Assembly: GCA_002720865.1 (NCBI GenBank)
Contig: PBIO01000017.1
Location: 62,001 to 126,000, forward strand
DNA length: 64,000 nucleotides
Direction of reading: 5' to 3'
Source of the DNA: Halobacteriovorax sp.
GTDB lineage: Bacteria > Bdellovibrionota > Bacteriovoracia > Bacteriovoracales > Bacteriovoracaceae
The notes beneath the pieces were generated by a model, which saw only the letters and a list, made by a program, of their open reading frames with translations, did no database searches and was not told where the DNA came from. Shown here piece by piece: positions 28,424 to 33,617 of this stretch. The position numbers and the translations under genes are program-made. Positions within the stretch are counted from its first letter, which is position 1, and every line of letters begins with the position of its first letter.

Positions 28424-28843
28424 ATGGCAAGAGTAAAAATTCAATTTCCTGATTCTCACTTGTTTGAAACCAACCTAAAGGTATGTATAGATCATATTAA
28501 TTACGGGAATCACATGGGTAACGACAGGTTTTTAAGCTTTGCCGGTGAAGCCAGGTTGAGGTTCTTAAAAAGTTTAAAACAAGATGAAATGAACTTTTAC
28601 GGATCATCATTGATAATGTCTGACGCTGAGATAAGCTATAAGGCTCAAGTTTATCATGGGGACTCAATCAAAGTTGAGCTAGCTGCTAAACCTGTAAATA
28701 ACAAATCATTTGATTTTCTCTATCGATTTAGTAATCAAAACAATACTGTTGTTAGCTTAGTAAAAACGGGGATGGTATATTTTGATTACGATGCGAACCG
28801 AGTCTGTAATGGTCCGGAAGAATGGCTAAGACAGCTGGTCTAG
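28424..28843 (+). CDS. Hot-dog thioesterase (4HBT family)
   Basis: The 139-residue protein has the single hot-dog domain of acyl-CoA thioesterases: IDHINYGNHMGNDRFLSFAGEARLRFL at residues 22-48 contains the active-site helix. Substrate is not evident. A DHNA-CoA thioesterase role (menaquinone) is possible, because the window has most other men genes but no MenI, yet nothing here proves it. Its 3' end overlaps the convergent receiver/cNMP gene by 18 bases. Confidence 0.8.
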   Translation: MARVKIQFPDSHLFETNLKVCIDHINYGNHMGNDRFLSFAGEARLRFLKSLKQDEMNFYGSSLIMSDAEISYKAQVYHGDSIKVELAAKPVNNKSFDFLYRFSNQNNTVVSLVKTGMVYFDYDANRVCNGPEEWLRQLV

Positions 28844-29605
28844 TTTGTCATCCAGCTCTTTAACTCTTCTGATTAAAGTCTCAATCAGCATTCCTAGCCA
28901 AAAAGGTTGCTCTTTAATAAAGCTGTCAGGGTCACCAAGTTTTAATTCTATCACTTCTGAATCATCAATGGCCTCTACAGTGGCGTTTCTCCCTTCATTA
29001 TTAAGAAATGCCATTTCGCCTACTAACTGTCTTCCAGAGATTTCAGCCAAAAGCTTACGACCTTCACTATGCTCCTTAAAGACGCCTAGTTTGCCAGATT
29101 TAAGAACATAGATGCTAGTGCTCTTATCCCCTTCTTTAAAAAGAGCCTCATGAGCCTTTAGGGAAACGAGTTCAAAATTAATGCTGTTGGCTTCTTTAAT
29201 AGCCGAGGAAATCGTCCCTAATAAATGAGGGACTCGAATTGATTTAGGAACAATATGAAGGTTATACTTACTAATTAGTTCAGCCTCTTCTTCGAGCCTT
29301 GCCCTAGTTCCAGTTACGACTATAGGAATTTTTTTAGTAACTTCCTTACTTTTTAATATTTTGACTAACTCAAAGATAGTTCCACCATCAGCAAAGTCCA
29401 ACGTACAAACAATGACAGTTGGTCTACTTCGGTCGATTTCTTCCAAGGTATCCTCTATATTTGTCATTGCAATTACATCAAAATCTAAGAAAGCATTGGC
29501 GACTATATTTCCAAACTTTTGCAAAAGATCTGTATCCTCATCTATTAGATGAATAATTTTTGCCCCTGAGGACAGGTATAATAGATCTTTTTCTTTTTGT
29601 TCCAT
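28826..29605 (-). CDS. Receiver-like domain fused to a cyclic-nucleotide-binding domain
   Basis: Residues 15-135 follow the response-regulator receiver pattern (IIHLIDEDTDLLQKF, VIVCTLDFADGG, VVTGTR, PKSIR). At the phospho-acceptor position the alignment puts Thr68, with Asp70 two residues later, so it is probably a pseudo-receiver. Residues 145-235 form a cNMP-binding domain (FKEGDKSTSIYVLKSGKLGVF, LVGEMAFLNNEGRNATVEA). There is no DNA-binding domain. It starts three bases after the hybrid histidine kinase, with no ribosome site of its own, so the two are coupled and likely act in one pathway. Confidence 0.82.
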   Translation of the reverse strand: MEQKEKDLLYLSSGAKIIHLIDEDTDLLQKFGNIVANAFLDFDVIAMTNIEDTLEEIDRSRPTVIVCTLDFADGGTIFELVKILKSKEVTKKIPIVVTGTRARLEEEAELISKYNLHIVPKSIRVPHLLGTISSAIKEANSINFELVSLKAHEALFKEGDKSTSIYVLKSGKLGVFKEHSEGRKLLAEISGRQLVGEMAFLNNEGRNATVEAIDDSEVIELKLGDPDSFIKEQPFWLGMLIETLIRRVKELDDKLDQLS

Positions 29606-29608
29606 AAG

Positions 29609-32600
29609 TTAAGAAATCTTTTTAATTTTATCTTCTGGTAATAAAAATTCAATTATTTTTTCTTTTTTAATAGGTTTCCCCATATAGTCACTAAAACCTG
29701 ACTCTAAAAGTATTTGTACTTCTTCAGTTGAGTCATTAGCGGTGATGGCCCATGCTTCGACCTTCTCCGACTCGCATTTTGCTTCATATTCTCTAATTTT
29801 AGAAATAGCAGTCTTTCCATCCATCACTGGCATATTAACATCCATTAGAATTAAATCAAAACTATCTTCCATATATTTATTAAGTCCTTCTTCACCATTG
29901 AGGCAGTACGTGACTTCAACCGGATATTTCTTCATCATAACTTTAAAGAGCATATGCATATCTTCTGCGTCATCAACAAAGAGAACTTTATAATTCTCTT
30001 TCTCTAAAGCAGGCTTTGATTTAAAAGGAATAATTTTATTTTCAGTTGATCCGTATTTATTCTCTTTAGCAATTTTAGCTACTGTTTGACTTAGCTCCAA
30101 TACATTAAATGGCTTTGAAACTAAACTATGGACATTAAACTTCTTTTTTACTTCTTCCGGTAATTCAACAATCGTCCCACTCATCAAAATGATTTCGATA
30201 CCACTATTTTGTGTATTAACCATTTGTGATAGTTTTAGGCCATCTATTTCAGGCATTCTCAGATCTGTTAAAACCAAATTAACTGGATATTTCTTAACTA
30301 AGAATAAAGCCTCAAGACCACTTTTTGCCCAAAGCACATTCAGCTCTTGATCATTTAGAGAGTCAACAATTATCTCTCGCACATTCTCATCATCATCTAC
30401 TACAAGTACAGTTGGCAGCTCTTTTGAAAGTCTTTGAATGCCCGATAACTCTGTAGTAGGTCTTAGGTATTCAGTGATTTTATCTACAACATGGTCTATA
30501 CCCATTGATTTTTTAGCAAAATCATTGGCCAACATATTAAGGTCACTTAAAAATTCGGTTTTAATAGATTCAGCCAAAACAATTAGTGGAATATTTTTAA
30601 AGCTAGGTGATGTTTTTAACCTTTTAAGGATATCGATACCATCCACATATTTCATCTCTAAATCAATTAGGACAATATCAACTCTTTCAATTTTAGCTAT
30701 TTCCTCTGCATCTAAACCCTGAGCACTATGAACAAAAATAAAATCGTCATGGGAAGGATGAGAATTAAGTGAATCAAAAAACTCCTTATTATCATCTACG
30801 ATCATTACTCTTGGAACTCTAATATGATCAGTGATTTTACCACGAGTCACTTTAGGTAGGATAAAATGAAAGACCGCCCCTTCCCCTTCTACAGATTCAA
30901 CCCAAACTTTCCCATTATGAAGCTCGATAATATTTTTACAAATTGCCAGTCCTAGTCCTGTTCCAATTTCACGGTCTTTAACTCTGGCTTGTTCATATTT
31001 ATTAAAGATAGACTCTATCTTATCCTCAGGAATCCCAGGACCAGTATCAGAAATACTTATCTTTAAGCTTTCTTCTTCACTTTCATTTAAATCGCAAATT
31101 GCTTTACCTTCTATTCGGATTTGACCACCTTCGGGAGTGAACTTTAAAGCGTTACCAATAATATTATTAATAACCTGAATAATTCGACCATAATCTCCTA
31201 AAAGAACAAAGTCGTCTTCAAAGTCATATTTGATATTTATATTCTTTTCTTTTGCTTTTAGTTGATAGTTTTGGATACTATCTTCAACTAATTCTTCTAC
31301 ATTAAATCTTTCATAATCTAATTTTATTCCACCTTCAAGTCGGGCCATATCAAGTAGGTCTGTAATTAAATCTAGTGCAAACTTAGCTGAATGCTTGGAT
31401 CTCTTAATTAAATCTTCAGCTGATAAGGAATGTCCCATAAGCTCTTCATGCAAAAGATCCATTGCCGTTTCAATTACAGCCAATGGATTTTTTAAATCAT
31501 GGCTAACAATAGCTAAAAGCTCATCCTTGTCCCTACCGATCTTTTCAATTTCATCTTTTTGCTTACGGAGATCTTTAAGTAGAAGTGACTTGCCCCGGCT
31601 GATACTCTCCAATTGATCTTTTGCGATTCGAGTCTCCCTTTCAGACTTCTTGAGAATTCTCGTCCGTTCATTAACCTGCCTAATCATACCCTGAAAGGAA
31701 AGTGCCAAAACTCCAATTTCATCATTAGAATTTATTGAAATATCAAGGTCGGTTTTTCCTCTAGCAAAATCTTGTGCATATTGAGTAATCTTCGCAATAT
31801 TTTTTGTAAGATATCTACTAAAGTACCATGCTGAAAGAGTTGTTAATGCAAGAATTGCTAAGGTCCAAATTATAGTAGGCTTTTTGAATACTATATTTTG
31901 GGAAACTACTAGTCTCTTCGGTCTACTTATACCTAAGCTTACATACTTATTCATATCACCTGGTAGTAAAGGTATCTTTTTTGAATAAAATAAATTTTTT
32001 CCAACTTCATCTTTAAAAAAATGAGAACGTCCATAAACGAATGCCTCAGTTTCAGGATAGTCAGATTGAACCAAGTACCTGAGGCCATTTTCAAAGCCAA
32101 AGGATTTACTTGAATTTGGATGATAAAGGTAATCTCCATCGGAGTTAAATATATAAAGAGAATATTTTTGATCTAACTCATTTCTAAGTTGAATAAAGTT
32201 TCTATCTAAATTAAAATCTATTTTTATAAACCCAATCACTTTTTTCTTATTTTTGATCGGTGTTACTATTCCTATAAACGGTTCATTTTTTTTGTTAAAA
32301 AGTCTTATGCTAGTTAAATAAGAATCTCTTCTCTGAGTGATGGCCCTTAGGTTAAAAACCTCATCAGTCGTAGTAGAAGTTCCCTTTCCCTTCCTTGAAA
32401 CAGACATATAGGTTCTTGTGTTATTTTCACCTACGAACAAACTAATTCTTAGAATATCTTTTTTAGAATCTAGAAAGTTTTTTAAGTTATCTTCAACAAA
32501 TGAAAAGGTTTCATCAATATTTTCATCGATGGCCTGATTAATAGTTTTAATAAGTGGGTCTTTAGCTAAAAAATTTGCATCCTGTAAGGCAGAAGATACC

Positions 32601-32773
32601 CCTGATGTTAAAATGGGTGCCATTGAATTGGCTTTTTCTTCCATTAGTTCAAATTCTCTTTCAACTAAATATTCATTTCCTTTGTAAAAGAAAACCATAG
32701 CAATTGCTGTTGCAGTTAAGGAAACTACAAGTAAAACTGCTAAAGTTAATTTGGATGAAATAGAAAATTTTAT
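29609..32773 (-). CDS. Hybrid sensor histidine kinase with three receiver domains, apparent AUA start
   Basis: From the N-terminus: membrane segment 1 (residues 8-30), an extracytoplasmic Cache-like sensor to about 295, membrane segment 2, HAMP to about 370, HisKA with His425 in IVSHDLKNPLAV, and HATPase_c with NNIIGNALKFTP, ISDTGPGIP and GTGLGLAIC. Three receivers follow, starting near 654, 786 and 929, each with an acceptor Asp (LIDLEM, LTDLRM, LMDVNM). The first ATG in frame (32698) would remove membrane segment 1. Upstream the frame is open to a codon ATA at 32773, preceded at ideal spacing by GAGGTGA, giving MKFSISSKLTLAVLLVV if ATA initiates. It precedes the pseudo-receiver/cNMP gene. 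Confidence 0.85.
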   Translation of the reverse strand: MKFSISSKLTLAVLLVVSLTATAIAMVFFYKGNEYLVEREFELMEEKANSMAPILTSGVSSALQDANFLAKDPLIKTINQAIDENIDETFSFVEDNLKNFLDSKKDILRISLFVGENNTRTYMSVSRKGKGTSTTTDEVFNLRAITQRRDSYLTSIRLFNKKNEPFIGIVTPIKNKKKVIGFIKIDFNLDRNFIQLRNELDQKYSLYIFNSDGDYLYHPNSSKSFGFENGLRYLVQSDYPETEAFVYGRSHFFKDEVGKNLFYSKKIPLLPGDMNKYVSLGISRPKRLVVSQNIVFKKPTIIWTLAILALTTLSAWYFSRYLTKNIAKITQYAQDFARGKTDLDISINSNDEIGVLALSFQGMIRQVNERTRILKKSERETRIAKDQLESISRGKSLLLKDLRKQKDEIEKIGRDKDELLAIVSHDLKNPLAVIETAMDLLHEELMGHSLSAEDLIKRSKHSAKFALDLITDLLDMARLEGGIKLDYERFNVEELVEDSIQNYQLKAKEKNINIKYDFEDDFVLLGDYGRIIQVINNIIGNALKFTPEGGQIRIEGKAICDLNESEEESLKISISDTGPGIPEDKIESIFNKYEQARVKDREIGTGLGLAICKNIIELHNGKVWVESVEGEGAVFHFILPKVTRGKITDHIRVPRVMIVDDNKEFFDSLNSHPSHDDFIFVHSAQGLDAEEIAKIERVDIVLIDLEMKYVDGIDILKRLKTSPSFKNIPLIVLAESIKTEFLSDLNMLANDFAKKSMGIDHVVDKITEYLRPTTELSGIQRLSKELPTVLVVDDDENVREIIVDSLNDQELNVLWAKSGLEALFLVKKYPVNLVLTDLRMPEIDGLKLSQMVNTQNSGIEIILMSGTIVELPEEVKKKFNVHSLVSKPFNVLELSQTVAKIAKENKYGSTENKIIPFKSKPALEKENYKVLFVDDAEDMHMLFKVMMKKYPVEVTYCLNGEEGLNKYMEDSFDLILMDVNMPVMDGKTAISKIREYEAKCESEKVEAWAITANDSTEEVQILLESGFSDYMGKPIKKEKIIEFLLPEDKIKKIS

Positions 32774-32840
32774 TAATCACCTCAAAGTTTAATTAGAGCT
32801 GTAATGCCCTATAAACTTTTCGGTTAAGTAGTGAGAATTC

Positions 32841-33617
32841 TTAAAGACAAAGCTCTCTTTCTGTTAAAATCTGCCCTATAATCGAAAAAGCGATTTCCTC
32901 GGGAATATTAGAGCCAAAATTAAGCCCTATAGGGCAAAATAACCGCTCTAAATCCTGTTCTAAAATACCCAGCTCTTTTAGGTCAGCCTTAATTACTTGA
33001 GCTTTTTGCTTGCTTCCAATCACTCCGATATAGGGAAAGTCCGCAGCCTTTAGAAAGGCCTTATGGAGAATTGGCACATCATATTTATGCCCCTGAGTCA
33101 TAGAAATGATAAATGTTCCCTTCTCTAACGACGCGATAGCATCTTCTGAGTTTTCGATACAAACTTTTTCAAGCTTTTTATGGCTTGGTAACTTCTCTAT
33201 CCAGTCTACTCTTGGGTCAATACATTTAACTTCACAGTCCAATTTTAACAAGAGGGGTATTAGGGATTGCGAAACATGACCAGCTCCAAAAACGGCTATT
33301 TTCAACTTTGGCTTACCAAATTTTTCAAAAAAAATGCTGACCTCCCCTCCGCAGGTCATACCAATATCTTTTTGCAAATTCCATTTAGCAAAAAAGTTAG
33401 CTTCATTTTCCTCAAGCATTTCTTTAGATTTGATCTGTACGGCATGTTCTATTTTTCCGCCGCCAATACTGCCCCAGAATAAACCTTCTTTAGTAAAGAT
33501 GACTTTCGCTCCATCAATTTGTGGGGCAGAACCTCTATGTGAGACCATAGTTGCTAAGACAACTTCACCGTAGTTCTCTATTGCCGTTTCCATTTTTTTT
33601 ATAAAATCTATTTTCAA
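32841..33617 (-). CDS. xdhC: Xanthine dehydrogenase accessory protein (XdhC family)
   Basis: XdhC-type proteins bind the molybdenum cofactor, help its sulfuration and insert it into XdhB. The N-terminal half has VVLATMVSHRGSAPQIDGAKV and GSIGGGKIEHAV; the C-terminal half has a Rossmann-type AVFGAGHVSQSLIPLLLKLD and FIISMTQGHKYDVP. The length of 258 residues is normal. It overlaps xdhB by four bases and is the last gene of the xdh operon. Only 67 bases separate it from the hybrid kinase, so read-through is possible. Confidence 0.88.
   Translation of the reverse strand: MKIDFIKKMETAIENYGEVVLATMVSHRGSAPQIDGAKVIFTKEGLFWGSIGGGKIEHAVQIKSKEMLEENEANFFAKWNLQKDIGMTCGGEVSIFFEKFGKPKLKIAVFGAGHVSQSLIPLLLKLDCEVKCIDPRVDWIEKLPSHKKLEKVCIENSEDAIASLEKGTFIISMTQGHKYDVPILHKAFLKAADFPYIGVIGSKQKAQVIKADLKELGILEQDLERLFCPIGLNFGSNIPEEIAFSIIGQILTERELCL

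Follow-up and report, generated by a model that had tools for sequence, protein, structure and literature searches.

A hybrid histidine kinase of Halobacteriovorax with a conserved AUA codon as its probable translation start

The hybrid histidine kinase gene of Halobacteriovorax sp. described here very probably begins translation at an AUA codon, ATA 32773 (32771..32773, minus strand), as judged from comparison of related genomes, and this start is almost certainly a fixed feature of the genus, and neither a mutation of recent date nor an error of sequencing. The gene (29609..32773, minus strand) lies in the window, that is, the whole 64,000-nucleotide stretch of contig PBIO01000017.1 that was analysed, and its translation, Pfam domains and purifying selection point to a product of 1054 aa. 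The protein is modular, possessing in order an N-terminal membrane helix, a dCache-like sensor, HAMP, HisKA and HATPase_c domains and three receiver domains. HAMP, HisKA (1.1e-11), HATPase_c (4.8e-29) and Response_reg (in three stretches) score above the Pfam cut-off, with dCache_1 (E-value 1.9e-8) below its gathering score. With HisKA, HATPase_c and receiver domains in one chain, the protein is a hybrid sensor histidine kinase, as it had been named in a preliminary description of this DNA. It also has an N-terminal anchor and an extracytoplasmic sensor, the helix of the former (residues 11–29) being present only if the AUA is used.

The open frame of the kinase runs on the minus strand from 32776 to 29609 and is closed upstream by an in-frame TGA (32779-32777), two codons before the ATA. 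Between this stop and ATG 32698 (32696..32698, minus strand), which is the first standard start in frame, lie 26 codons (32776-32699), none of them ATG, GTG or TTG. The ATA itself is preceded by a putative Shine-Dalgarno site, GAGGTGAT (32776..32783, minus strand), identified from the sequence and its predicted pairing as an 8-nt match to the usual 16S tail, in which GAGG (32783-32780) ends 6 nt before ATA (32773-32771). The predicted pairing energy of −11.0 kcal/mol is stronger than that at 97% of 326 gene starts called in the genome of the window (G000), and extended pairing is likewise predicted at the ATA of two other species (−9.5 and −8.3 kcal/mol), the three species standing at the 97th, 92nd and, in the weakest case (G002), 83rd percentiles. 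The anti-Shine-Dalgarno tail was assumed for all of these energies, as searches of the three genomes yielded no 16S rRNA gene.

A start at the internal ATG 32698 would give a shorter kinase and has in its favour that it is the first standard start of the frame, but it is highly improbable as it has no Shine-Dalgarno site, with a predicted energy of +1.2 kcal/mol that is stronger than only 2% of the 326 genes. It would also cost the protein most of membrane helix 1, the highest 19-residue hydropathy being 2.58 (residues 11–29) when read from the ATA and just 0.77 within the first 60 residues when read from the ATG. Moreover, the 24 codons preceding this ATG evolve as protein, and its position is occupied by TTA in G001 and ACT in G002. 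The preliminary description had noted the missing ribosome site and the damaged helix, as well as the open stretch without standard starts bounded by a stop, the spacing of GAGG and the normal kinase N-terminus encoded from the ATA, and these observations were all borne out.

Three species of the genus were compared with one genome each, namely G000, G001 and G002. G001 is a separately assembled MAG (Halobacteriovorax sp. bin.43), and a further search of contigs for genus members recovered only this MAG again (L016). The kinase orthologues share 87% (G001) and 67% (G002) protein identity with that of the window, and their start regions read GAGGTGTTTA ATA AAA and GAGAGGATCTT ATA AGA respectively, so that ATA is present in three of three genomes. 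Downstream of it, mismatches across codons 2–26 in the three species at first, second and third codon positions number 6/0/13, 5/5/13 and 7/5/15, and dN/dS is well below 1 both in this segment and across the whole gene, for which dN is 0.08–0.25 and synonymous divergence is high to saturated. Retention of the ATA would by itself say little, the codon being A+T-rich; the strength of the case lies in the coding-type evolution that follows it and in there being no other start that the three species share. Together, the ATA in three species and the coding-type substitution downstream argue against a chance occurrence and support the AUA start first proposed for the window.

The preliminary description had also offered a recent ATG-to-ATA mutation as the other reading, which, like a sequencing error in one genome, would leave the gene crippled or in reality normal. 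The two codons are one base apart; however, both congeners carry ATA at 87% and 67% identity, one of them in a separate assembly, and since the codon is shared despite near-saturated synonymous sites the ATA at the kinase start must be old, making either a recent mutation or an error highly unlikely. An older loss is conceivable, in which the ancestor of the three species had already lost the ATG and what remains is a slowly decaying, untranslated relic, and this would fit with there being no standard start in any of the three species. Such a relic is very hard to reconcile with more than 1000 codons remaining open in all three and with strong purifying selection on both the whole gene and codons 2–26, and it is accordingly given very little credence.

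The kinase frame does not extend above the ATA, as G002 differs by 4 nt in length from the other two species immediately before the start region, and the window has the in-frame TGA. G001 does have an in-frame TTG 12 nt upstream of the ATA, overlapping the Shine-Dalgarno site, but the same frame is closed by TGA in the window and the TTG is absent from G002. The latter has no ATG, GTG or TTG in any frame from the stop of the upstream xdhC gene to 33 nt past the ATA (codon 12). With the TTG of G001 blocked or absent elsewhere and G002 devoid of standard starts, the orthologues share no usable ATG, GTG or TTG in frame, and the ATA is the only start candidate, and the sole codon at Shine-Dalgarno distance, common to the three species. 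G002 also bears on a short leader that would start at GTG 32780 and be joined to the kinase frame through frameshifting or through slippage of the polymerase at AAAA. The GTG is present in the window and G001, and losing one A would join the frames; however, G002 has no such codon there in any frame, the GTG lies within the Shine-Dalgarno site itself and a run of four A is short for slippage, so this route is very unlikely. It is thus the genus comparison, through the kept ATA, the coding nature of codons 2–26, the replacement of ATG 32698 in both relatives and the sequence of G002, that leads us to reject a newly arisen mutation, a miscalled base, initiation at the internal ATG and the frameshifted leader.

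An altered genetic code, in which AUA is read as methionine throughout, has nothing in its favour but the kinase start itself and is exceedingly unlikely. Among 1427 aligned places, internal AUA codons of G000 correspond to isoleucine in G002 in 960 and to methionine in only 34, so the code is taken to be standard. The tRNA genes scanned included four with a CAT anticodon and none with a TAT anticodon.

Outside the genus, the comparison of codon 32773 among relatives that had been suggested as a check gave ATG, GTG or TTG in most other genera, against ATA in all three Halobacteriovorax species. Start codons of these orthologues were assigned by eye from their position and upstream sequence, with ATG in L011 and L012, GTG in L018, L019 and L022, and TTG in L017, L020 and L021 among members of the family; the more distant group L013, L024 and L025 starts with ATG. 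Weak starts thus appear to be common in this kinase family, GTG or TTG being used by six of the eight close orthologues outside the genus (L023 excluded), compared with 20% of 326 G000 genes, in a small sample of related species that are not independent. In L023, from one MAG of another genus (G090, contig C242), standard starts are likewise lacking until midway through helix 1 and the sequence reads AGGGGATTCGCC-ATA-AAA-AAT, which may represent an independent AUA start of an orthologous kinase.

Other non-standard starts were looked for in a partial survey of 368 orthologue pairs, in which 1.02 Mb of G000, the window and the infC loci were set against corresponding G002 stretches (about 1.4 Mb), using coding-type conservation before any ATG, GTG or TTG in both genomes as the criterion. 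There were two clear cases among the 368 pairs, these being the kinase and a membrane-protein frame of 242 codons (G000 C14:572342-573049; L179, L180 and L181) located after a gene that we take to be rpiB. The remaining matches were mostly ordinary genes whose leader is conserved but non-coding, or ORFs lying antisense to a longer gene. Like the kinase, the rpiB-neighbouring gene has ATA in three of three congeners, and most other genera have ATG or GTG there or immediately beside it. It differs in that its ATA overlaps the upstream stop (GC-ATAG-A) behind an ordinary Shine-Dalgarno site (GGAG, 7 nt upstream), and because of this arrangement it is probably translationally coupled. In the case of the kinase, coupling to xdhC is unlikely, the two being 67 nt apart.

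The genus also has infC, the gene for IF3 (L026, L027 and L028), with AUU behind GGAGG in all three species, although it was missed by the survey filter owing to an in-frame TTG upstream; a non-AUG start is therefore already conserved in the genus. In these three species infC and the kinase alike keep a non-AUG start behind a strong Shine-Dalgarno site, infC differing in its AUU codon and its ancient control by IF3. A gene for a PLP enzyme resembling cystathionine gamma-synthase (L210) has ATC in G002 (C3, before 21647) and ATG in G000 and G001, suggesting a possible AUC start in G002 that overlaps the upstream stop.

Inefficient starts of this kind are represented in E. coli by infC and pcnB, which start with AUU. 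These resemble the kinase in that a poor AUN start is kept by selection and IF3 discriminates against it; they differ in the codon itself and in that infC is autoregulated by the IF3 it encodes, a direct connection that the kinase lacks. At the kinase AUA, the initiator tRNA (anticodon CAU) would pair with the first two bases, A and U, and tolerate an A-C mismatch at the last, while the long Shine-Dalgarno match 6 nt upstream would anchor the 30S subunit and partly offset that mismatch. As IF3 rejects mismatched starts, the AUA should yield only a small part of the output of an AUG, and that yield should depend on IF3 activity. The AUA would probably serve to hold a large membrane kinase at a low level, and the conserved start probably has this effect. 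We infer initiation at the AUA, its low level, its dependence on IF3 and its purpose, the low expression by analogy with published AUA starts (PMC13009471).

The preliminary description was right to call AUA initiation very rare, but conserved AUA starts are known elsewhere, having been reported in 2026 with extended Shine-Dalgarno sites in S. aureus, where infC, ccpN and citZ start in this manner (PMC13009471). In reporter assays, the AUA of ccpN or citZ supported about 10% of the expression seen with AUG in poor medium, and for ccpN this was as much as 30% in rich medium (PMC13009471). The kinase belongs to this already known class of conserved AUA starts with extended Shine-Dalgarno sites, of the S. 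aureus ccpN type. As in ccpN and infC of S. aureus, its AUA stands behind a long Shine-Dalgarno match, and as in ccpN the codon is conserved among relatives and is proposed to limit a regulatory protein. The S. aureus genes differ in belonging to another phylum, in encoding a transcription repressor and IF3, and in that their AUA starts were shown by ribosome profiling, and for ccpN also by reporters, the kinase start being read from sequence. IF3 was found to disfavour weak third-base pairs in vitro (PMC10158994), and the low, IF3-sensitive output proposed for the kinase is based on this result together with those from S. aureus. In E. coli, an AUA set in a coupling junction that lacked a Shine-Dalgarno site was non-functional (PMC9955659), which agrees with the presence of such sites at the AUA starts of the genus. 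A host-independent mutant of Bdellovibrio, a related predator, was found to carry ATA in place of ATG in bd0108 (PMC3818213), so that AUA does not replace AUG there without consequence.

The papers searched contained no case of this kind for the phylum, and a conserved AUA start in a sensor kinase, outside the IF3 gene, would broaden the evidence that selection uses weak starts to damp expression. Such selection could be tested naturally within the genus and its neighbours, with AUA in three species and ATG, GTG or TTG in the orthologues of neighbouring genera. It is possible, though rather doubtful, that the kinase (AUA), the rpiB-coupled membrane protein (AUA), infC (AUU) and perhaps others form a translational regulon that tracks IF3, in which event the weak-start genes of the genus would rise and fall together with IF3 activity. 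Because ATG, GTG and TTG are generally the only starts that standard bacterial gene callers allow, AUA-start genes are annotated in truncated form, and the kinase would lose most of its first membrane helix.

Upstream of the kinase lies a gene of the XdhC/CoxI family (32841..33617, minus strand; Pfam XdhC_CoxI and XdhC_C), which ends 67 nt before the AUA in a different frame and whose 3′ end aligns in both congeners. Its stop is overlapped by the first bases of an element, TTAAGAATT..ACCGAAAAG (32811..32843, minus strand), which is kept in all three species and looks like a promoter. The pattern TAA[AG]-N15-NCCGA[AT]A is also found upstream of orthologues L018 and L019, and for the TTAAGAATT..CCGAAAAG element similar CCGATAAG sequences occur upstream of L018, L019, L021 and L012 in other genera. 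A sigma-28 reading of the element was dropped, as its pattern shows no enrichment across the genome (13 occurrences against 8–20 at other spacings) and is absent at the flagellin genes with readable starts. RNA folding in two species gave a stem that would hide the Shine-Dalgarno site, which is not claimed here because the conserved promoter-like element itself forms its 5′ arm and G002 does not keep the pairing. Downstream, 3 nt after the kinase, lies a gene with a cNMP-binding domain (28826..29605, minus strand; Pfam cNMP_binding), which is a possible partner of the kinase.
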